Below, in pieces: positions 5,801 to 30,400 of a stretch of 64,000 nucleotides of DNA. Source of the stretch: Halovivax gelatinilyticus (GTDB taxonomy: Archaea > Halobacteriota > Halobacteria > Halobacteriales > Natrialbaceae); NCBI RefSeq assembly GCF_024300625.1, contig NZ_CP101322.1:2059992-2123991 (forward strand), written 5' to 3'. Under the pieces are notes generated by a model. The model saw only the letters and a list, made by a program, of their open reading frames with translations, was not told where the DNA came from and did no database searches. The translations under genes and the position numbers were made by a program. Every line of letters starts with the position of its first letter. The first letter of the stretch is position 1.

Positions 5801-8046
5801 AGCTCCACCTCGTGATGGTCGTCGAGTTCGTCGTCGAGCCGGTCGACCAGCGCCGGACCGAGCTCGCGGTCGGATTCGTCGTCGTAGCCGTACTCGACGA
5901 TCGGGTCGGAGAGGACCGCTATCTCGAGGGCCTCCTCGACGTGTACGTCGGTCGGGCCGTGCGTTTCGGTCGCGTTCTCGCCGTAGAGACCGTCGAACTC
6001 GGCTTCGAGCGTAACGGCTCCGGCCGTCTCGTTGTTCACCTCCTCGCCCGGCTCCTCGGGCTCGACCGAGAGTTCGACTTCAGCCGGATAGTCAGAAAAT
6101 TCATCGTCGGTTCGGTCGTCGAACTCGAACGGTTCGCCGAACTCGAGTTCTTCCTCGCCGAACATCTCGTCGGTTTCGATCGAGAGCGTGACGTTTCCGT
6201 CGAAATCGCCGTCACGCTCGACGACGAGTGTGTCGGCGTGCCACGCGTCGTAGGTGATCTCGTAGTCCTCGCCGGGTTCGATCGCGTCCGGGGCGTCTTC
6301 GTCGACGACGACGCCGAGCGTTCGATCCATGCTGGCGTGGGCGGTCGCGAACTCGCCGTCGGCGACGTCCACGTCGATCGGTTCGTCTTCGTACCCGTCG
6401 ACGTCGACGGTCACTTCGTGGCTCCCCGGCGGCGTCTGAATCGCGTACGTGCCGAGGTCGTCCGTTTCAGTCGAGAGCTCGGTTCCGTCTTCGAGTTCGA
6501 CGGTGACCGTCGCGTCGGGGAATCGCGCTTCGTCGTCGGCGCGTTCGACCGTCCCCGTCACGCCCGTGTCGCCGCGTAGCGTCGCAACGGCGAGGTGGGC
6601 GTCGATGATCCCGTGTCCGTAGCGGACGTCCTGTTCGGGCGGAGCCTCGTCGGGTTTCCAGCTGGTCTCGACGAGGGCGTCTCGAACCTGATCGGTCGAG
6701 AGGTCGGTACTGGTCGCCGAGAGCATCAGGGCGGCCGCCCCGGTCACGTGGGGCGTCGCCATCGACGTTCCTGGAAGTTCCTGGTAGTCGCCGCCCGGAT
6801 AGGCGCTCAGCACGTCGTCACCGGGTGCGCTCAGGTCGGGAACGACGTATTCGTTGGGCCAGTCGTCGGGAGCGTCGCTCCCGAACTGAGCGGCAGAGAC
6901 CTCCATGCCGCTGGAGAAGTCCGTCACGCTCGCGTTCTCGTCGACCGCACCGACGCTCAGGGTGCTGTAGTAGTTCGCGGGCGAACCGCTGGTTCCTTCG
7001 CCCTCGTTCCCGGAGGAGGTGATCACCATCGTGTCGGTATCGATCGCTCGCTCGACCGGTTCGATGAGTTCGGGGTGCATCCCGTCCGCGCCGAGACTCA
7101 TGCTGATCAGATCCGCCTCTTCTTCGACGGCCCACTCGATCCCGGCCGCGATCTGGGCGAACGAGCCGCTTCCGTCGGCGCTGAGGACGGCGCCGTGCAT
7201 CAGGTCGGCGTCCGGGGCGACGCCGATGTGTTCGCCGCTCTCGTTGCCGCCGGCGACGGTTCCGCTGACGTGGGTTCCGTGACCTTGCGGATCCGCCGGC
7301 GTGTCACCCTCGACCTTCTCTCCTTCGGTCGTAAACCGGGCCCAGCCACCGGGATAGGTCGGATCGTTCGGATCGTCGGTGTATAGATCGAGGTCGGGAT
7401 GGGCGACGTCGATCCCGGTGTCGAGAACGGCGACGCGAACGCCTTCACCCTTCGTGTCGTAGTCCTCCCAGACGTCCTCGGCGTTCACCATGTCGACGCC
7501 GTAGGTCGTCTCGTCGTCACCGGCGGTCTCGAGGCTCGTCACCGCCCCGCCGTCGGTTTCGGCCTCGCTGGATTCGACCGGCATCGGCGCGTTCACCTCG
7601 AAGTTCTCGTGGAGCGCTTCGACGTGATCGAGCCTCGTTAGCTCCTCGATGGCCACCCGGTCGGTGTCCACCTCGAGGACCACGGCGTTCGCGATCCAGT
7701 ACGAGGCCTGGTGTTCGACACCGGCCCTTTCGTCGGCGAACGAGCGTACGTCGGCTTGCGTCTCCTCGGCGTGCCTCTGGAGCGCGTTCACCGGCTCGTC
7801 GCTCGAGGCGACGGTCATACTATCGGCGCCATCGAGTCGGACGACGACCGTTTCGGTTCCGTTGGCGTCGGAAAGTGCGTCACTCACCTCGACGTCCGTT
7901 TCCACCTGGTTCTCCCCGATCGTCGCGTGGGGGTCCTGTTCGGCTGGGTCGCTCGCAGCGATCGAACCGACTGCCACGCCGGCTACCCCGATCAATACCG
8001 CGAGGGTAACCGCCAGCAGGATCGATCGTCTCGAAGGCGATACCAT
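2821..8046 (-). CDS. Large secreted S8 (subtilisin-family) protease with right-handed beta-helix region
   Basis: A 1741-residue exported serine protease. A signal helix spans residues 8-31 and an I9-like prodomain roughly 45-155. The S8 catalytic domain spans about 180-480, with Asp209 (VAVLDTGID), His256 (GHGTHVSGT), oxyanion Asn347 (SSGNEG) and Ser428 (GTSMATPH). A CarboxypepD_reg-like Ig domain follows (about 485-570). A region resembling ThuA/class-I-amidotransferase-like folds comes next (about 730-1010; DVYVVQDEP). A parallel beta-helix (NosD/PbH1-type repeats such as GVEIRNVEVEEPFWAGVRI) spans about 1120-1440. The C-terminal region is a mixed beta part followed by an Ala/Glu-rich helical part. 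Unlike the proteases at 22760 and 27493 it has no CARDB domain and no PGF-CTERM tail; the next gene encodes both. An adhesion, glycan-binding or degradative role of the beta-helix is inference. Confidence 0.92.
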   Translation of the reverse strand: MVSPSRRSILLAVTLAVLIGVAGVAVGSIAASDPAEQDPHATIGENQVETDVEVSDALSDANGTETVVVRLDGADSMTVASSDEPVNALQRHAEETQADVRSFADERAGVEHQASYWIANAVVLEVDTDRVAIEELTRLDHVEALHENFEVNAPMPVESSEAETDGGAVTSLETAGDDETTYGVDMVNAEDVWEDYDTKGEGVRVAVLDTGIDVAHPDLDLYTDDPNDPTYPGGWARFTTEGEKVEGDTPADPQGHGTHVSGTVAGGNESGEHIGVAPDADLMHGAVLSADGSGSFAQIAAGIEWAVEEEADLISMSLGADGMHPELIEPVERAIDTDTMVITSSGNEGEGTSGSPANYYSTLSVGAVDENASVTDFSSGMEVSAAQFGSDAPDDWPNEYVVPDLSAPGDDVLSAYPGGDYQELPGTSMATPHVTGAAALMLSATSTDLSTDQVRDALVETSWKPDEAPPEQDVRYGHGIIDAHLAVATLRGDTGVTGTVERADDEARFPDATVTVELEDGTELSTETDDLGTYAIQTPPGSHEVTVDVDGYEDEPIDVDVADGEFATAHASMDRTLGVVVDEDAPDAIEPGEDYEITYDAWHADTLVVERDGDFDGNVTLSIETDEMFGEEELEFGEPFEFDDRTDDEFSDYPAEVELSVEPEEPGEEVNNETAGAVTLEAEFDGLYGENATETHGPTDVHVEEALEIAVLSDPIVEYGYDDESDRELGPALVDRLDDELDDHHEVELVRGANSVIGVVDEYDVYVVQDEPSTDAMRQFVEQTQRSDVGVVYLDQRQVANGITKLSEATGDPRGLHTPMPIDNSQIVSYDGSETDSDILDVEIRNETADYLEARGWADDHEHVPFREQEVLNFIEDYRSDNLAHIANEQCSFAGCQPRSIDGDGMHGEYGDVGGLGVDDLSRTVIASGLAETDTGIILDEGSELLGNAVHWAADDHGVSVEDHQPWKVDPGQTGEMEVSVPTTNETETDDPLESVTIGLNEHATVDPEEISIAIVDDEGTHDVELGETFEPTVENRSSIELSADIGADAFGELTFDHAYEVGNETITGATGPTSVYEGDEIRVTDDDDLQHVVDTVHVGDEVVVEDGTYDPIWVTADNVDVTIRAADGAEPVIEQQDERWEPHTRAGVIEVSADGVTIDGFTTDTSGQTYNNGVGVRHSMHEPVEDVTIENMRIVEPYQGVWAGSSTGQAHGVEIRNVEVEEPFWAGVRIHRSNDVLIEEVTVTEPGHNGIELGELSEDAIVRDNTIVDPEDAGVLLEVATATVENNEISGAQIGVEQESAGVGYVVDNEVTDSEVGVDLTLNPALHADPTWNATVVDNAFDTHIGVETSVLGELDYAADEPVHIRGNDFSETDVGVYDAHDGAMGPVDARLNYFGPHGPVDDPSVGERVSTAGDVTADPFLPDATVDYDQSGVATAVELEAGQTHAVGIPGPVSGTIDEMVTDAEGVIYGFDATENEWEQLGGNDSVDALEALLVVAETDGAITMNFESDADTPPSPESIDLETGWNFVSSPTYAPANDAFGHSSGDISLVSPDFAGPSDEPGDADVIDGTFSLSDEDVPTVSAFTGYFVFAEDDGELPARLGENPSLSAYANELGLDDGDDGEPSAGDGSAEAYYETVDHLIAEGVGVTPDEYHGALVEAIASETADASADVPANETDAFAEAAAGELTTTLAESTLEDEDDVVEAVETAIEQAAIVSAGSTTEPTPTVRVSAPTLAG

Positions 8047-13004: not shown

Positions 13005-14936
13005 ATGACACGTCCATCCGCCGACGGACCGATCGAGTTCGGTCGGTTCGACCGGGCCGATCGAAACTACTGGACGCTCGATCCGACGCTGCAGCGCGAA
13101 CTTCGTCGGGTCCTGCGTCCGGGCGAGTTCGAGTGGGCCGAGTCGCGCCTGGAGTCGTTCGGCGAACTGATCGGAACCACCGTCGCCGCGAACGCAGACC
13201 GCGTCGACGCGACCGGCCCCGAACTCGAATCCCACGACCGCTACGGCGAGGTACACAATTTCGTCAGGTACCCGCCCGAGCAACTCGAGAACGATCGGCT
13301 GGTCTACGAGCGCGGGATCGTCGCCGACGCGTTCGACTCGCCGCTCGACCGCGAGGAACCCACGGCGCTATCGCACGCGCTCGGCATGCTCGCACTGCTG
13401 TGTTACGCCGACGCGGGCTTTGGCTGTCCCGTCGCGATGACGATGGGCGCCGCGCTGGTGCTAGAGAAATTCGGCGACGAGTCGACCGACCCGTACTACG
13501 AGGCGCTCGTCTCCCGGGAGTACGACGAGCTGATCGAGGGAGCGATGTTTCTCACCGAGGAACAGGGCGGCAGCGACGTCGGCGCGATCGAGACGGAGGC
13601 CGTCTACGACGAGGAATCGGGCTACTGGCGGCTCTCTGGTGAGAAGTGGTTCTGCTCGAACATCGATGCCGAGGGGACGCTCGCGCTGGCCCGGACGCCC
13701 GAGGCGCCGGACGGGACGGCGGGACTCTCGATGTTTCTCGTCCCGCACGCGGACCCCGACGCGGGCGTCCTGACGAAGGGCGATCGGTACGGAGCCGGCT
13801 CGTCTGACCCGTCCGGCGCTGCGCTGAACGACCAGCTGTACCGCCGGCTGAAGGACAAGCTGGGGACGATTTCGGTGCCGACCGGCGAGGTCGAGTTCGA
13901 CGGCGCGAAGGCGCTTCTCGTCGGCGAGGAGGGCGAGGGCTTTCGCCAGATGGCCGAGATGCTGAACGTAGAGCGGCTGGCGAACGCCGCGGCCTCCTGC
14001 GGGATCATCGGTCGCGCGCTGCTCGAGAGTCGGATTCACGCGGCCAACCGCGAGGCGTTCGGCTCGCCGATCGACGAGTACCCGCTGATGCGCGAGGATT
14101 TAGTCGACATGACCGTCGACCACGAGGCCGCGACGGCGTTCACGTTCGATTCGGCGGCGCTCCTCTCGAGGCGCGAACGACACGAGCGATCCCGTCGCTC
14201 CGAGCGCGACGCCGATCGGGCCGCGATGTCGGCGGCCGAGGCCGAGTTCGGCGACGAGGAGACGGCGGCTGCCCTGACCGGTCCGACCGATCCCGATGAC
14301 GCGTACCGACTCATGCGCGCGTTGATCCCCATCGCGAAATTGCGGACGGGACGGATGGCCGTCGACACGGCCTCCTACGCGATGGAGATTCAGGGCGGCA
14401 ACGGCTACGTTTCCGACTTCGTCACCCATCGCCTGCTCCGGGACGCCCAGGTACTTCCGATCTGGGAGGGGACCGAGAACGTCCTCTCGCTGGACCTGTT
14501 GCGAGCGCTCGACCGCGAAGCGGCGCACGAACCGCTGCTCGAGACGATCGACGAACGATTGCAGTCTGTCACGCATCCGGCGCTCGAAGCGGCCGTCGAG
14601 GTGACGCGAGACGAGTACGTCGACCTCTCGGAGGCGCTCGTCACGCTGGCCGGGTCGGACGCCGACTACGCCCAGCTCTCGGCGAAACGGCTGGCTCACT
14701 ACGTTTTCGACGTCTACACGGCCGCGCTGTTGCTCGCCGAAGCGCAGGTTGAGCTGGATCGCGACGAATCGGACGGCGGCCCGAACGGACGCACGGCGCT
14801 CGTGGCTCGCCGGTTCGTCGAGACGCACCTGCGCGACCGGGCGGCCCGCGGGATCACGAGCGAGGACCGGTTCCCGATCGAGCACTTCGACGCGGTGGTT
14901 CGGTACGCGCCGGTCGAGCCGGAGAATCTCCCTTGA
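13005..14936 (+). CDS. Acyl-CoA dehydrogenase family protein
   Basis: A 643-residue flavoprotein of the acyl-CoA dehydrogenase superfamily, at the long end of the range, closer to AidB-like and long-chain members. Family signatures are FLTEEQGGSDVGA (flavin/substrate loop), EIQGGNGYVSDF and LPIWEGTENVLSLDLLRAL in the C-terminal helical domain. An extra C-terminal helical segment of about 130 residues follows. The expected reaction is alpha,beta-dehydrogenation of an acyl-CoA with transfer to an electron-transfer flavoprotein; the substrate cannot be read from the sequence. No beta-oxidation partner is adjacent. Confidence 0.9.
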   Translation: MTRPSADGPIEFGRFDRADRNYWTLDPTLQRELRRVLRPGEFEWAESRLESFGELIGTTVAANADRVDATGPELESHDRYGEVHNFVRYPPEQLENDRLVYERGIVADAFDSPLDREEPTALSHALGMLALLCYADAGFGCPVAMTMGAALVLEKFGDESTDPYYEALVSREYDELIEGAMFLTEEQGGSDVGAIETEAVYDEESGYWRLSGEKWFCSNIDAEGTLALARTPEAPDGTAGLSMFLVPHADPDAGVLTKGDRYGAGSSDPSGAALNDQLYRRLKDKLGTISVPTGEVEFDGAKALLVGEEGEGFRQMAEMLNVERLANAAASCGIIGRALLESRIHAANREAFGSPIDEYPLMREDLVDMTVDHEAATAFTFDSAALLSRRERHERSRRSERDADRAAMSAAEAEFGDEETAAALTGPTDPDDAYRLMRALIPIAKLRTGRMAVDTASYAMEIQGGNGYVSDFVTHRLLRDAQVLPIWEGTENVLSLDLLRALDREAAHEPLLETIDERLQSVTHPALEAAVEVTRDEYVDLSEALVTLAGSDADYAQLSAKRLAHYVFDVYTAALLLAEAQVELDRDESDGGPNGRTALVARRFVETHLRDRAARGITSEDRFPIEHFDAVVRYAPVEPENLP

Positions 14937-15302
14937 GCGGATAGCGCGCCCACGTACGTTCGACGCAATCTCACCGCTGTCACAAGATCTCCCGACGCTT
15001 CCGACGTCATTACGAAAAACACGGCACGAAATCAGCTTTTAGTCGACTTTGGCCCAATTCCGTCGATACTGATACCGTTTCGCCACATTCGTTGCTGAGA
15101 CGGTTGGAACGTTGGCAGTTCGTCACCGCCGTTCAACCGCATCTAGCAGGGGACCTACGTTAAGGCTACCATCTGAACCCCGTTCCGATAAAATCTTTCC
15201 TTACTAAAAAGAGTTACAATATTTCCTAGTATAATGAGATTGAGGGTGATGCTATAGGCAATCAAAACATTTAATAGTTGGTCAATTGAAGTGCCGAATG
15301 CA
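14937..15302. other. Intergenic region upstream of the halocin-like gene (366 bp)
   Basis: No convincing gene. The right two-thirds become AT-rich compared with the neighbourhood, with several TTTAAT, TAATGAG and TATAGG stretches. This supports a separate promoter and possibly a different origin for the following gene pair. Confidence 0.5.
15270..15276 (+). promoter_or_regulatory. TATA-like box of the halocin-like gene
   Basis: TTTAATA lies about 30 bases before the ATG at 15303. This is the usual haloarchaeal distance for a leaderless transcript, and it supports that ATG over the in-frame GTG at 15291. Confidence 0.55.
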
Positions 15303-16217
15303 ATGTCCGATAAAAATGACCAACCAAATCGTCGAACAGTGTTGAAGTCAATGTCGGTCGGGGCGGCTGTGTTCGGATCGACTGCAATCGGGGCAGGTTC
15401 TGTTGCTGGACAAATTATCGAGGATGAGACCGACGTTTCGATCCTCGAATACAACGAGCTAGATCGAGAAACGATCAGCACCGACCGATCGCTTGTTCGT
15501 AATCATCCGGCCGTGTCCCAGTTCGAAGCTCACTTTAGCGCGTACGAGCTCGAATTCCGGAGTGCAAGTGGATTCAGCGTAGTCACGGACGACCCCGCAG
15601 TCAACGAGGCAACTCCCCGGATCGTATTGCTCGGCTACGCTGACGAACGCTTCGATCCCGATCCCACAGGTCCCGTCGAGATACCTGGAAATAGCGGCGT
15701 GATAATTGCCCAACTCGAAACGCACTCCGACGGCAGCCGGGTGGTCTCAGCTGCACCGTTCATCGCAGAGCAGCTGTCCACCGCTTCTACTCGTTTAGAT
15801 CTCACCTTCCAGATAAAAACGCTCGAACAGCGCGGTCGGGACACCAATGGCGTTATCAGTTCTGATGAGGCTGCTACCATGGATCTGAACGAACGAGTGC
15901 AGGATCAGGTCACCGTCGGTACTGATTCGGTATCGCCTGCCCTCGACAGTGACGCCGGAACTGAAAGCGTCAGTGATCTTATTGGATACCTCTGTGCAGG
16001 GACCTGTACACCCATGGTTCTCTACATCTGTGACAATGCGAGTGGTAGCGTGTCCAGACGAACCTGCGTGAGTGCCTGTTTCAGGTTCGTCACGAATCCC
16101 TGGCTCCTCGGTGCCTGTGGAGGCGCCTGTTTGATCCTGATCGATTTCATCAATGATCAGGGGTGTGCGGCTGGTGCAGGTACAATCTGTGCCGCATTTT
16201 GCTCACAGGCGTCCTAA
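15303..16217 (+). CDS. Halocin-C8-like precursor: Tat signal, putative immunity domain, ten-cysteine C-terminal peptide
   Basis: A 304-residue protein from the ATG at 15303. A Tat signal (NRRTVLKSMSVGAAVFGSTA, residues 9-28) directs folded export. Residues about 40-225 are an acidic, cysteine-free domain, in the position held by the immunity protein HalI in the halocin C8 precursor. The last 75 or so residues are hydrophobic, Gly/Ala-rich and contain ten cysteines at 231, 235, 243, 255, 259, 272, 276, 288, 296 and 300. Halocin C8 has the same overall plan (precursor about 280 residues, C-terminal peptide about 76 residues, ten Cys). The spacing here, 3-7-11-3-12-3-11-7-3, is symmetric and differs from halocin C8 as I recall it. 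Low GC and promoter structure set it apart from its neighbours. Antimicrobial function is inference. Confidence 0.72.
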   Translation: MSDKNDQPNRRTVLKSMSVGAAVFGSTAIGAGSVAGQIIEDETDVSILEYNELDRETISTDRSLVRNHPAVSQFEAHFSAYELEFRSASGFSVVTDDPAVNEATPRIVLLGYADERFDPDPTGPVEIPGNSGVIIAQLETHSDGSRVVSAAPFIAEQLSTASTRLDLTFQIKTLEQRGRDTNGVISSDEAATMDLNERVQDQVTVGTDSVSPALDSDAGTESVSDLIGYLCAGTCTPMVLYICDNASGSVSRRTCVSACFRFVTNPWLLGACGGACLILIDFINDQGCAAGAGTICAAFCSQAS

Positions 16218-16344
16218 TTAACATCCTATAGTAAACTTTCCTTCGGAACCGTCTCGACCACTCACATTTCTTTCGGTAGAAGGAAATAACTCCGCCGACC
16301 GGGTTGGAAAAAAGTTAAATGCATGCCAACGGTACTTGCGACAC

Positions 16345-17064
16345 GTGACTTCCGATAGATCATCCATCGATCACGTTCGATCGCCCGCAAAACTAGTATT
16401 CTACCTGGCATTCGCCGTTGTTCTGTATCTAGCGTTCGGATCACTCGGACTGTTCATCGTCGGTCTGTTGTTCGTGATCGAATTAGGTCGCGTTCTGGTC
16501 ACTGGTGACGTCGACGATCGGTACGTCGTCAATCTGCTGCTAGGGACACTGACCATCGGTGGCTCGCTCGTCTGGATCTGGTTGGCTAGCGAATCTGGTC
16601 ACTCACTTCTCTGGCCGAGTCTCGTCCTCTTCGGCGGCCTGTGGATGATTCTAGACACGCGAGTAGCGCGCCTGACGGCTACCGAACCCGGCGGATCGAC
16701 CACCGACCGACGTGCTGTCGACGAATCGGTCTCTGATGTCGAGTTACTGGTCACGATGCAGAACGCCCGACTACTCACGCGGGAAATGCGCACGGCTCAC
16801 GACCCGTTGACCGTCACGCAACTTGCCGATCGATGTACACTCCACGAGGAACGGGTAGCTGACGCGATTCGCTTTCTCAGCGAAGATGGAACGGTCTATC
16901 CGGTCGAGTCGGCGAGGCCCGACCAGACTCGGTATGCGATCGACGAATCCATGCTGGGCGCGTCGTGGGCGTACAGTCAGCTCCGGTACGGTACGAAACG
17001 GGGATTAAGGCGCATCGGACATCGCGTTGCCAGACCGCTTCGCTTCTATTTGAATCGGGGATAA
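16345..17064 (+). CDS. Membrane protein with C-terminal winged-helix-like domain
   Basis: A 239-residue protein from a GTG at 16345; a TATA-like GTTAAAT at 16314-16320 supports it, though an upstream TTG is also in frame. Residues about 15-115 hold three or four hydrophobic helices (FYLAFAVVLYLAFGSLGLFI; GTLTIGGSLVWIWLA; LLWPSLVLFGGLWMIL). The cytosolic C-terminal half looks like a winged helix (LTVTQLADRCTLHEERVADA then a wing-like strand). It follows the halocin-like gene by 127 bp with its own promoter. It could be a regulator or a membrane immunity or sensing partner, but I do not recognise the family. Confidence 0.65.
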   Translation: MTSDRSSIDHVRSPAKLVFYLAFAVVLYLAFGSLGLFIVGLLFVIELGRVLVTGDVDDRYVVNLLLGTLTIGGSLVWIWLASESGHSLLWPSLVLFGGLWMILDTRVARLTATEPGGSTTDRRAVDESVSDVELLVTMQNARLLTREMRTAHDPLTVTQLADRCTLHEERVADAIRFLSEDGTVYPVESARPDQTRYAIDESMLGASWAYSQLRYGTKRGLRRIGHRVARPLRFYLNRG

Positions 17065-17127
17065 CGCCCCGTCGACGAATTGTTTCGGACGTCGGAGATT
17101 GTTGCTCTCCATTCCGCTCCGTGACGC

Positions 17128-17561
17128 TCAGCGAACGACGGTGACCGGCATCGACGCCCGGCTGACCACCTGCTCGGCGACGCTGCCAACCAGCACGCGA
17201 GCGACGCCCTCCCGGCCGTGGTTACCGACGACGATATGGTCGGCGTCGTGTTCGTCGGCGAAGCGGACGATCTCGCGACCCGGTTTGCCGGCAGCCGTCT
17301 CTACCCTGACGTCTCGCTCCGTCGGACCGATGACCGCTTCGACGTCGCCGAGAGGTCCGTCCGCGTCTCGTCGCAAAGCTCCTTTAGCTTCTCTCTCTGG
17401 CGAGTTCGAAGCCGGCCTCGGTGGCGCCGTCGGCGACCTCGATCACTCGAAGTAAGAGATCTCGTCGTCGGGGTGGCGGCAATGCGGAGTGCCTTCTGGG
17501 CCGGTTCGGAGCCGTCGTACGCGACGAGAACGGTCAGGCGCGACGGTTGGACGTCCGCCAG
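17128..17561 (-). pseudogene. Decayed universal stress protein (UspA) gene
   Basis: Read leftward, the DNA encodes in successive frames the parts of a UspA protein: RLTVLVAYDGSEPAQKALRI near 17480-17545, then LLRVIEVADGATEAGFELA near 17405-17450, then DRDVRV-type sequence through the nucleotide-binding loop HIVVGNHGREGVARVLVGS and the final SRASMPVTVVR ending at 17128. At least two frameshifts (near 17443-17480 and 17376-17402) separate these blocks, and no ATG or GTG start is in frame at the 5' end. The gene is therefore broken, unless the assembly contains several errors. It follows hjc by about 25 bp. Confidence 0.8.
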
Positions 17562-22759: not shown

Positions 22760-25700
22760 ATGACTTTCCGAATTCGAAACTTATCATTATTATTCATACT
22801 CTCGGCAGTGGTGTTCGTTGGGGTAGCGTTTACCGGCGTTGGCGCGTCCGATACAGTACTCGGGTCCGATCATCACGGCGTCGAAGCCGACAACGGCTCG
22901 TCGGCGGAGGCCGAGATCGACATGGTGCTTCAGGGGGCGGATGGTGAGGTCGAAGTTATTCTTCGACTTTCGGACGTGGATGAGTCACTGCTGCCTGGCG
23001 ATCGAGAGACCTCGGCAACCACCTTACAGACACACGCTGCGGTGACACAGGAACCAGTTCTCGACCGACTCGAACGGATGGACGGGGTAACGATCGAAAA
23101 CCGCTGGTGGATCACGAACGCGATCATGGTGACGGTCGACACCGATCGGGCCGACCTCGAGAGACTCGCCGGTATCGACGGCATCCAGGAGTTACATCGA
23201 AATCACCAGTTTGCAGCCCCCGAACCCGTCAACGTCGACGCCGACGCGGAACCGACCGGTGACGCGTACACGTACGGACTCGAACAGATCAACGTACCGG
23301 CGACGTGGGACGAGTTCGAAACTACGGGCCAGTATATCCGAGTAACGGTCGCCGATACCGGTGTGGATGCTGACCATCCGGATATCGAATTAGCCGAAGA
23401 GGACGGCTGGATAGACTTCATCGGAGATTCGTCCGACCCGGTTGACAATGACGGGCACGGCACACACGTGAGCGGGACGATCGCGGGCGGCGACTCGTCG
23501 GGTACGGCGATCGGCGTCGCTCCGGACGTCGAACTGGCAAATGCACGGGTCTGTGAAGGCAGTACCTGCGACGGTGCGGCAATCATGAATTCGATTCAGT
23601 GGGCTGTCGATACCGAATCGGATATTTTGAGTATGAGTCTAGGCGGTCCCATATCCGGTGATTACGTCGACCCGGTTCGCAACGCAATGGATGCAGGAAC
23701 GTTAGTCGTCGCCTCGATCGGGAACGACGGTGAAGGAACGGCCGGCTCACCAGGGGCCGTGTACGATTCCCTGGCGAGCGGTGCAACCACCGAGGACGAG
23801 GAGGTTGCTGACTTTTCCGGTGGACTGTTGATCGACTCCGAGGACGCCTTCGGTGACGACGCTCCCGACGACTGGCCGGATGAGTACATCACTCCGGACA
23901 TTGCAGCACCTGGGGATGATGTTTTGAGTGCAATACCAGGTGGTGGGTACCATACAATGTCAGGTACGTCAATGTCCGCTCCCCACAAGAGCGGTGCCGC
24001 GGCGCTACTTCTCGCTGCATCGGGTGGTGGGCTGGGGCCATATGACCTAGTCGATGTATTGGAACAGACGGCCTGGAAGCCGGACGACTGGGATGAAAGC
24101 AATGCGGATGACGCCATCGGCGGAAAGGATAATCGCTACGGTAGCGGTATTATCGATGTGTACGCTGCTACTGCGTCGGTAGCGGTCGATTCGGGAATCG
24201 AGGGTGTCGTGACCGATGACGCTGGAGATCCAATCGAAGGGGCAATCGTCTCGGTCGGTGGACAGTCGATCGAAACAAACGTGACGGGTGCGTACGATGC
24301 CGTCCTTGCACCGGGAACCTACGACGTGACAATCGATAAGTTCGGATACGCCACAGAGACGGTGACGGTCACGATCGATAATGAGACGCACGTCGCCGAG
24401 CGCAACTTCGAACTCGCCGATTCGATGGCCGTCGAGCTGGACTCCGGTCAGCCGAAGGGAATAATGGCAGGCGATACGTTCACCGTCTCGTTCACCGTGG
24501 CGAACCTCGAGTCGTATGCCGTCGACCGGAAACCAGGATACGACGGCGTACTCTCGTTTACGTTCGACGGCGAGCCGATCGACGAGGGCGAGGCGGTCGA
24601 CGTAGACGACGTCAGCGGTGAAGTCGCTCTCGAAGTCACCACCGAAGTCGATACGACCGGTGACCTCGAACTCGAACACACCTTTACGGGGTCGTCCGAC
24701 AGCGAAATTCTCACGACCAGACCAACGGCAGTTCTCGAACAACAAGTCTCTGTGGCCGTCGTTGACGACGAAACATTGGGTCACGATGTCGCCACTCGTC
24801 TTAACGGTCAGTCCGACGAGAGCGTTTCCGTCTCCGTGATCGACGGCGCCGAGGCCGTTACTGCGGCTTCAGACGGCGAGTACGACGTCTTCGTCGTCCA
24901 AAACATCGACGAAGGACACGTGCAGGACTTTGCCTCTTACACGAACGGTGACTCGACGGGTGTCGTCTGGCTCGATCAATGGGGTAACGATCAATGGGGT
25001 GATGAAAGTAACGGAATCTCTGTAAAGTCTAGCGTCTTAGACAATCCGACATCGACATCTATGAGTCTCAATGATCAAGATCCTAAACTCGAGATCCTCG
25101 CTGATCATCCGATCTTCGAGGGGGTAGGTGAGCAAGGTAATCTCGTGTCCATCCACGACGCCAACGACCCCGATCGAACTTGGTTTGCGGGATACGACGG
25201 TGACGTGATCGGATATATTCAGGCCGGTGGTGTAACGGATGGAGATGGAATCGGCGTCGATGAAGGAAACCGAACGGTTTTGCTTTCTTCGTTCGGTTCT
25301 ACCGAGTACGTCACGAGTGGTGATTACACGTCCGAGGCTGACCAAATCTTAGCCAACGCGGTTGAGTTTGTTGCCGACGACGGTGTAGAACCAGCCACCT
25401 TCTCCGGCTCGGTCACCATCGGCGACAACCCGGCACCCGAAGGTGCCGTGGTCGAGGCGTACGTCGACGGCGAACTCCGCGGCACGACGACCGTCGAAAC
25501 GCCCGGAGAGTACGGGACCGCCGACGATCCGCTCGTCGTCGACGGAGCAGCGGACGACGAGGGGGCCACCGTGACCTTCGAGGTCGACGGCCTTTCGATC
25601 GAAGAAACTGCCGAGTGGTCGGCCGGTGGCGAGTACAGCCTCGACCTTAACGCATCGGGTACCGCCACGATCGAGGTGGCGCTTGGAGACGACCGATTCG

Positions 25701-27492: not shown

Positions 27493-30400
27493 ATGGGAAC
27501 CGGGATAAGGAATAATATAATTTTGACACTTCTGATTGTCGTTTTGCTATTCCTGACACTCGGGGGCGGTGTAACGACGGCTCAATTTGGATCGTCGGGT
27601 GCCGGACAGGACGAGCAGATCGGTGAACCGATGCAGTCGGTCGAGATCGAAGACGGATTACAAAACGCGACGGGCGAGATGGAGGTGATCGTTCGCTTCG
27701 GATCGGTCGACAGCGCGACCGTACAGTCGAGTGACGACCCCGTCAACACGCTTCAACGAGCGGCGAACGACTCACAGGTATCGTTGAATCAGCTCGCTGA
27801 TCGATCGGATGCGGTGACGATCGAACGATCCTATTGGCTGGTAAACGGCGCGTTGGTGACCGTGGACACCGAGCGGGTGGCGATCGAGGAACTCGCGAGA
27901 ATTGACGGCGTAGAACGGATCGAGGAGAATTCGAAAGTTACGCCACCGTCGACGACGGTGACCGAAGCCACCGACCGAACGGCGACGACCGCGACCGACG
28001 TCACGTGGGGACTCGACAGGATCAACGCTCCCGACGTGTGGGAGACCTTCGGGACGCGGGGTGACGGGGTCCGGGTGGCGGTCCTCGACACTGGAATCGA
28101 TGCGAGTCACCAAGATCTCGACCTGCATTCGGACGATCCGACCGATCCGACCTATCCCGGTGGCTGGGCGGAGTTCAACGAATACGGGAACGACGTCTCT
28201 GGCTCTGAACCTTACGACTGTGGAACTCACGGAACCCACGTCAGCGGAACGGTCGCGGGCGGCGATGGCTCGGGAACGCACATCGGCGTCGCGCCGGACG
28301 TCGAATTGATGCACGGTGGCGTCCTCGTCGAAGAGAATGATGATGGCAGTTGCTTCGGCTGGTCGTCTCAGGTTATTGGAGGGATGGAGTGGGCTATTCA
28401 GAACGATGCTGACGTCATCAGCATGAGTTTAGGCGGAGAGAGATACTCCAGTCAGTACCCGGATGCGGTCCGGAACGCCGAGTCGGCAGGCGTCCTCGTC
28501 GTCGCGTCGGCCGGGAACACTGAGGAGGGAAGTAGCACCAGCCCGGGGAACGTCTACGATTCGTTCGCCGTCGGGAACAGCAATTTTCACGACGGTATTT
28601 TCTCCACGTCGAGCGGCGAACTCGTGCAGAAAAGCGAATTCCCGAGGCCGAAATCCCACTGGCCGGGCGAGTGGATCGTCCCCGATGTCGCCGCACCGGG
28701 TACGAACGTAAACAGTGCACTTCCGAATGATGAGTACGGGTTTAAGACTGGAACGTCCATGGCAGCCCCGCACGCTTCGGGGGCGGTCGCCTTGATACAG
28801 TCCGCGACGGACGACGATCTTTCACCCGGCGAAATAACCGCTGCGCTCGAAGCGACCGCCTTGAAACCGGATAGTTGGGACGAAGACGACGCGATGTACG
28901 TCAAGGGCGACAAGGACAGCCAGTACGGCGCCGGGATCATCGACGCGCGGGCGGCCGTTAGCAAACTCGTCCCGGCAACCTTCGAGGGTACGGTTGTGGA
29001 CGACACCACCGGTGATCCAGTCGAAGGCGTAACTGTCACGGCCGTGTCGGGAGCGGAGACCGCCGAAGCGAAAACCGATTCCGACGGGTCGTTCGCCGTC
29101 GAGGTCGCCGGCGACAATGCGTACGACCTGACCGTCGATCCCGAAGGGTATCAGGCCGTGACGAAAGACGGTGAATACGTCGGGAGCGATCAGACCCTCG
29201 ATCTCGGCACGGTATCGGTAATCGGAACCGCCTCACTCGAGGGAACGATTTCCGACGCGGTCACTGGTGAGCAACTTGAGCACGTTTCTCTGACAGCGAC
29301 GGATGCACACGGCGGTGACCAGAGCTACGTCGCCGAGACCGATGGGACCGGCGAGTTCGAATTAGAATCTGTCCGTGGGAGTGTCGAGTACGAACTGACG
29401 GCGCTGGCTCCTGGCTACGAGCCACGGTCCGTGACGACGCACGTCGGAGACGGCGAGTCGGCCGTGGTGGACGTAGCTCTCGTCGGCGATTCGGCGCTTT
29501 CTGGATCCGTCACCGACCGAGAATCCGGTTTCGAAGTCAAAAACGCGACGGTCTCCGCAGTGAGCGACGCTGGAACGTACGTAACCGTCTCGGAGAGTGA
29601 CGGCACGTACGCGATCGATATTCCTGGGAACGAGACGGCCTACGAGGTGTCTATCGTGGCCGAGGGATACGAGACGGAGACGGAGACGATCGTCGTCGAC
29701 GGCGAAGTGGACCACACGCGTTCACTCGTCGGTGATTCGAACATCACTCTCTCGATTACCGAATCGAACTTCGGCGATCCGATCGAAAACGCGACGGTTA
29801 CGGCGACGAACGAATCGGTCGGTTCCTACGACGGGACCGCCACCGTGGGAGAGGGTACGTACCTAATCGAAAACGTCTCGAGTGCCAGCGAGTACCTGAT
29901 AACCGTCGATGCAACCGGATACGAGACGAATTCGACGGCAGTTTCGGAGCTAACACCCGACACAACTACCGACGCAGGCGACCTCCTTCTCACCGGAAAT
30001 GCGACGATCGAGGGGACGCTCGTGGATGCCTTCGGGAAGACTCCGGACGGCGAAGACGTCTCAATACCGAATACGACGGTCGACGTGGAACGTGCGGATG
30101 CCAGCGACTCGCTCACGATTACGAACGCGACCGACAGTGACGGTTCCTTCGAGCTCGCGGTCCCGGGCATCGGCGCGAATTACACCGTCTCCGCTTCGGC
30201 CCCGTACTACGAGGGGACGAGTCAGACGACTGCCAGTCTCGAGGATAACGCATCGACCGCGTTCGATCTTCGGCTAACTGGAAACGCCACGCTCTCGGGT
30301 GCGGTGAACGCGAGCGGTGTACAATCCGAGAGCGCTACGATCTCAGCGACGACCGACGCTACTGGCTGGGGTGACGTCACGTGGTACAACGAAACGGTCG

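Follow-up and report, generated by a model that had tools for sequence, protein, structure and literature searches.

The best-described relative of the gene analysed here is halocin C8 (ProC8/HalC8/HalI), which is made as a Tat-exported precursor of about 280–310 residues with an acidic, cysteine-free pro-region and a hydrophobic C-terminal domain of about 76–80 residues, holding ten cysteines over an outer cysteine span of 69. Immunity reportedly requires an N-terminal helix-loop-helix of HalI, according to the title of Mei 2008, a reference given in PMC11509114. Halocin H4 is reported to be activated by proteolysis, and the same has been noted for C8, for which the protease is not known (PMC12893001). 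Three further systems are relevant. The saposin-like proteins (SapA-D, SP-B, NK-lysin) are helical and membrane-active, comprising four to five helices and three disulfides (PMC7447066). The α-hairpinins of plants are short four-cysteine peptides in which two CX3C motifs lie on antiparallel helices with C1–C4 and C2–C3 pairing (PMC7191063). Finally, bacterial bPH2 proteins help to transport leaderless bacteriocins or to confer immunity against them (PMC8657885, PMC11580447).

We analysed a 64,000-nucleotide stretch of the Halovivax gelatinilyticus genome (the window). The gene at 15303–16217 encodes a 304-residue protein, P0001, which shares with halocin C8 the Tat signal, the sizes of precursor and C-terminal domain, the acidic cysteine-free pro-region, and the hydrophobic ten-cysteine tail with its outer cysteine span of 69. 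Its features are as follows.

15264–15269, + strand: A-rich, BRE-like AAAACA, read in the sequence directly 5' of the TATA-like element

15270–15276, + strand: TATA-box-like TTTAATA, read by eye about 30 nt upstream of the ATG; putative promoter element, from the usual haloarchaeal layout

15303–16217, + strand: halocin-C8-like precursor gene with ATG start, encoding P0001 (304 residues), placed in the mirror clade (below) by family match and tree

15303–15410, + strand: Tat signal region, residues 1–36 (probable end point), motif NRRTVLK, twin arginine kept in homologues

15411–15971, + strand: cysteine-free acidic pro-region, about residues 37–223, pI 4.1, putative counterpart of HalI by structure prediction and profile comparison, with a putative immunity role by analogy with HalI

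15972–16214, + strand: predicted mature peptide, about residues 224–304, ten cysteines, putative cleavage site

All ten cysteines of P0001 (residues 231, 235, 243, 255, 259, 272, 276, 288, 296 and 300) lie in the last 74 residues, with gaps of 3-7-11-3-12-3-11-7-3. An earlier note on this DNA had described this palindromic spacing, preceded by a Tat signal and a cysteine-free middle, and the open reading frame agrees to the residue, with no cysteine before residue 231. Randomly splitting the 60 non-cysteine residues into nine gaps yields a palindrome with P = 6e-6, and reshuffling the same nine gaps with P = 0.003; the recurrence of the core spacing in homologues, described below, is better evidence for symmetry than either value. 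The two arginines of NRRTVLK are invariant or over 90% conserved among 24 homologues, and the TAT model matches P0001 weakly in a protein profile scan. The predicted mature peptide is 8.3 kDa and strongly hydrophobic (GRAVY 0.79). The gene has a GC content of 54.8% against 64.3% for the window, placing it within the lowest 1.7% of 915-bp stretches, as the note had remarked of its low GC. The note also gave the gene its own promoter: the position of TTTAATA does fit such a promoter and a leaderless mRNA, while promoter function itself is presumed from the motif. By its Tat signal, cysteine-free pro-region and cysteine-rich hydrophobic tail, P0001 is a distant halocin-C8-type precursor.

Profile searches place P0001 at the edge of the known family. 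The NCBIfam model TIGR04449 (halocin_C8_dom), with a curated cut-off of 24 bits, matches residues 233–297 at 20.9 bits in a plain protein scan and the same gene at 25.9 bits as a domain in a six-frame genome scan. Among the mirror-clade proteins, 22 of the 24 scanned also match this model (E up to 1). The tail and the middle, which the note had suggested searching separately, each align with classical halocin-C8-like members in profile–profile comparison: the mature domain with E = 4.2e-7 (probability 93%) and the pro-region with E = 2.5e-4 (probability 43%), against E = 0.9 for an unrelated control. The proposed halocin C8 precursor plan is therefore upheld by the TIGR04449 match and by both comparisons. 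NF040679 (halocin C8 precursor-like) weakly matches three mirror-clade members, and TIGR04450 (Gram-positive C8-like immunity/bacteriocin fusion) one; neither matches P0001. The precursor found no meaningful match in the PDB by sequence or by fold. The TIGR04449 family is present in 43 of 391 genomes of the class; H. gelatinilyticus has a single such gene, and a genome profile search of four congeners found none. A profile built from relatives of P0001 recovered further members, and these relatives were not found on the plasmids or viral contigs searched.

The halocin-C8-like proteins that we extracted follow two cysteine plans. The classical plan reads 2-7-3-7-(9 to 14)-7-..., and is represented in full by a 283-residue protein (L006) of exactly ProC8 length with gaps 2-7-3-7-13-7-8-8-5, whose tail we take to be halocin C8 itself. 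P0001 differs from this spacing, as the note had said. The mirror plan reads (2 or 3)-7-(10 to 12)-3-(11 to 13)-3-(10 or 11)-(7 or 9)-(mostly 5; 3 in P0001) and occurs in 27 sequences belonging to about 16 genera of haloarchaea. In a 69-protein tree these 27 separate from 42 classical sequences (SH-aLRT 100) with one change of plan. On this sequence evidence the mirror clade is a divergent branch of the known halocin-C8-like family, and the note's suggestion of a new peptide class is set aside, P0001 belonging to a sister clade inside that family. P0001 differs from halocin C8 in belonging to this separate clade, in having a membrane protein gene alongside, and in scoring below the TIGR04449 cut-off as a whole protein.

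P0001 ends a long branch in the 69-protein tree (1.54). Its closest relatives by mature domain are the ten-cysteine proteins G398 and G375, at 53% identity. A full-length tree puts P0001 inside the subclade that lacks C1 and C10, which would imply a regained pair; we rejected this placement since its signal comes from the pro-region and the mature tree groups P0001 with G398/G375. Several unusual proteins were met in the survey. Three genomes from a single genus share a near-identical classical relative with 12 cysteines, in which an extra C and CX3C precede C1 (L017, L109, L110). A 706-residue protein in G183 (L127, 87–2207, +) has a C-terminal halocin-C8-like domain without C3 and C8. Tat-signal proteins with cysteine-rich C-termini of unrelated spacing (6-9-2-3-13-2-4-10-5; 5-4-3-9-10-0-8-6-1) were seen at L045 (814–1770, −), L048 and L047 (1501–2181, +), of which L045 and L048 resemble two copies in one genome; these may be further families of secreted cysteine-rich peptides.

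The pattern of cysteine loss across natural relatives suggests how the cysteines pair. Six of them (C2, C3, C4, C7, C8 and C9) are kept in all 27 mirror-clade proteins. C1 and C10 are jointly missing from 7 of the 27 and C5 and C6 jointly from 5, neither member of a pair ever being absent alone, and on the mature tree each loss falls on a single branch (97/97 and 99/98). Among classical proteins, C3 and C8 are jointly missing from two separate lineages, G041_b and G183. These are only four independent events, affecting three different pairs; by chance, three non-overlapping co-lost pairs would each join position i with 11-i with P = 0.003. The conservation of cysteines in homologues, which the note had wanted checked, thus takes the form of retention or of loss in pairs. 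The simplest reading is that the co-lost pairs are nested disulfides 1–10, 3–8 and 5–6, which implies by elimination that 2–9 and 4–7 also pair in nested fashion. There are two counter-examples: G319 and G165, from one subclade, have a shifted C5 with C6 unmoved, and the classical G018 lacks one single cysteine.

We propose that this nested ladder of cysteine pairs accounts for the mirror symmetry of the spacing. The nearly mirror core 7-11-3-x-3-11-7, with x = 11–13, recurs across most of the clade, and gap length varies mainly at this centre (11–13), as expected of a hairpin turn. The exact outer 3...3 is found in P0001 only, where relatives have 2...5; relative to G398/G375 both C1 (CX3C for CX2C) and C10 (CX3C for CX5C) have shifted, and because they shifted together P0001 is the sole exact palindrome among ten-cysteine members. 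The exact palindrome is P0001's own variant of a nearly mirror family plan, and we read the joint shift in the sequence as a concerted change affecting one and the same outer pair. It could instead be argued that P0001 is an ordinary halocin C8 relative whose spacing has no structural meaning, the palindrome having arisen by drift in a fast-evolving toxin. The near-symmetry of close relatives, with 3...3 in one sequence only, speaks for drift; the recurrence of the core in most of the clade and the loss of mirror pairs in three of the five possible cases speak against it, and we regard drift as an unlikely explanation.

Next, we considered the nested ladder in terms of predicted structure. An AF2 model from 24 sequences has a mean pLDDT of 68.4, with ten-residue blocks of the mature domain mostly at 73–80, and predicts four helices in this domain (residues 223–245, 252–262, 266–286 and 292–303). 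The note's disulfide-stapled helical hairpins are thus the best reading of the symmetry, given the paired losses and these predicted helices. The pro-region appears confidently folded, with blocks of pLDDT 85–92 over residues 51–110, and consists of adjacent predicted helices (55–66 and 69–79) followed by β-strands. The ProC8 model has adjacent pro-region helices at 54–65 and 68–79, while its mature domain (pLDDT about 30–50 in the classical model) is too poor for comparison.

The inner part of the ladder resembles an α-hairpinin, in that the plant C1–C4/C2–C3 pairing corresponds to C4–C7/C5–C6 of P0001; we claim no sequence relationship between the two. The tail might on this basis be a secreted serine-protease inhibitor of the α-hairpinin trypsin-inhibitor type (CX3C-Xn-CX3C) with no antibiotic action. 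Its inner motif CVSAC-X12-CGGAC has the α-hairpinin form (PMC7191063), and the host genome is rich in S8 proteases, with some 14 such proteins. Yet this motif is only the inner part of a ten-cysteine domain (against four cysteines), the tail is strongly hydrophobic and falls in the halocin-C8-like family, and some homologues adjoin bPH2 proteins of the bacteriocin-cluster kind, so that we give an inhibitor hardly any credence.

The saposin-like proteins offer another likeness. They share the CX2C...CX5C ends of most mirror relatives, with a cysteine span of 73 in saposins and 70 in those relatives, and a nested plan, which is established for saposins (PMC7447066) and suggested by paired cysteine loss for the mirror clade, the latter having two extra rungs (C3–C8 and C4–C7). 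These same features would suit a secreted protein of saposin type that binds lipids or serves at the surface and has no killing function. Against this, Pfam SapB_1/SapB_2 find no match in P0001 (one relative has a sub-threshold SapB_1 match, E = 0.49), hhalign against saposins is not significant (E = 0.02, probability 2%; score 15.3 versus 9.1 ± 1.8 in column-shuffled controls, maximum 15.8), and halocin C8, the studied relative, kills. We consider such a non-killing role very improbable. The Pfam and profile results do not establish saposin homology, which is kept as a likeness only: the P0001 tail may work like a saposin-type peptide, but we do not class it as one.

Comparison with congeners shows that the precursor gene lies in a small genomic islet, with one other gene.

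14915–17131, no strand: low-GC islet (53.9%) holding the precursor gene and the gene downstream, between acyl-CoA dehydrogenase and usp genes, from congener comparison

16336–17064, + strand: 242-residue gene with N-terminal membrane segments and a winged-helix-like region at the C terminus; a candidate partner in immunity or sensing

The homologous segments with the acyl-CoA dehydrogenase and usp genes are 2217 bp apart here, versus about 75 bp in G071 and G101 and about 140 bp in G043, and the islet of about 2.1 kb extra is absent from all three congeners. Both genes lie within this extra DNA in the same orientation, so they probably arrived together; a search of the islet for mobile-element terminal repeats gave no clear ones. 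The usp gene beside it (17128–17546, −) is frameshifted, leaving an 82-residue ORF where congeners have an intact 139-residue usp. Elsewhere the window holds three very large S8 (subtilisin-type) open frames, at about 6610–7449 (−), 23327–24148 (+) and 28060–28929 (+), with frame lengths of 1759, 1506 and 1322 residues.

Mirror genes in G357b (E = 8e-6) and, weakly, G309 (E = 0.013) have a neighbour of this TM/winged-helix architecture. The family of the 16336–17064 gene has members in 38 of 125 genomes, mostly not adjoining halocin-like genes, and we rejected the idea of a halocin-only immunity gene. The 16336–17064 product is a candidate immunity partner of the precursor. More generally, counting transmembrane segments with a simple hydropathy window, we found a small multi-TM gene directly downstream in 17 of 28 mirror loci versus 6.4% of far genes, where related loci are not independent of one another. 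Within a 1.5-kb limit such a gene follows 16 of 27 mirror and 11 of 43 classical loci (Fisher P = 0.006), and these small downstream genes are possible immunity partners. One such family, of 116–164 residues and 3–4 TM segments, lies directly 3' of mirror genes that lack C5 and C6 (L082, L093, L090, L099).

Genes for bPH_2 proteins adjoin six mirror loci, five with a YdbS/YdbT-like pair (148–164 and 479–492 residues) and one, G375, with a YdbT-like gene. Only a few bPH_2-type loci occur per genome in the relatives, so six adjacencies are unlikely to be due to chance. The EntDD14 (DdE/DdF) and aureocin A53-like leaderless bacteriocin clusters likewise have bPH2 YdbS/YdbT proteins, whereas the mirror-clade halocin-like proteins have a Tat leader and predicted disulfides. 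At the P0001 locus, a TM/winged-helix gene takes the place of the bPH2 genes.

Returning to the nested ladder, we judge it probable that the gene encodes a precursor, exported via Tat, of a secreted peptide antibiotic akin to halocin C8, active on membranes and with disulfides arranged in this way. The gene would be expressed from its own promoter, with TTTAATA upstream, and the precursor exported folded via Tat, as its sequence supports. The cysteine-free middle would keep the tail harmless and, like HalI in the halocin C8 system, probably protect the producer. A protease outside the cell would then release a hydrophobic ten-cysteine peptide of about 80 residues; the host genome carries many S8 proteases. 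With the ladder 1–10, 2–9, 3–8, 4–7 and 5–6, two helices would lead out to a turn at C5–C6 and two lead back, with a rung at each level. The released tail would act on the membranes of competing haloarchaea; an antibiotic role is likely. Immunity would come from the pro-region and/or the adjacent membrane protein.

What is new at the sequence level is a sister clade of halocin C8 in which the cysteines form a proposed mirror ladder and membrane-protein partners are frequent. A wider and rather doubtful generalisation is that halocin-C8-like peptides are archaeal saposin-type membrane killers. Each would be a helical hairpin in which as many as five disulfides are nested; the mirror clade would have reached its symmetry by moving one rung, and for immunity would draw on interchangeable membrane proteins (bPH2 YdbS/YdbT pairs, small 3–4 TM proteins, TM/winged-helix proteins), unlike the one-gene immunity of halocin C8. 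From the cysteines that natural relatives lose in pairs comes a disulfide map for the whole family that is concrete and open to falsification. It would link these peptides of archaea to an antimicrobial fold plan that is already known, of nested saposin or hairpin type, and the neighbouring genes provide named candidates for immunity that would be overlooked by models in which one gene gives halocin immunity.
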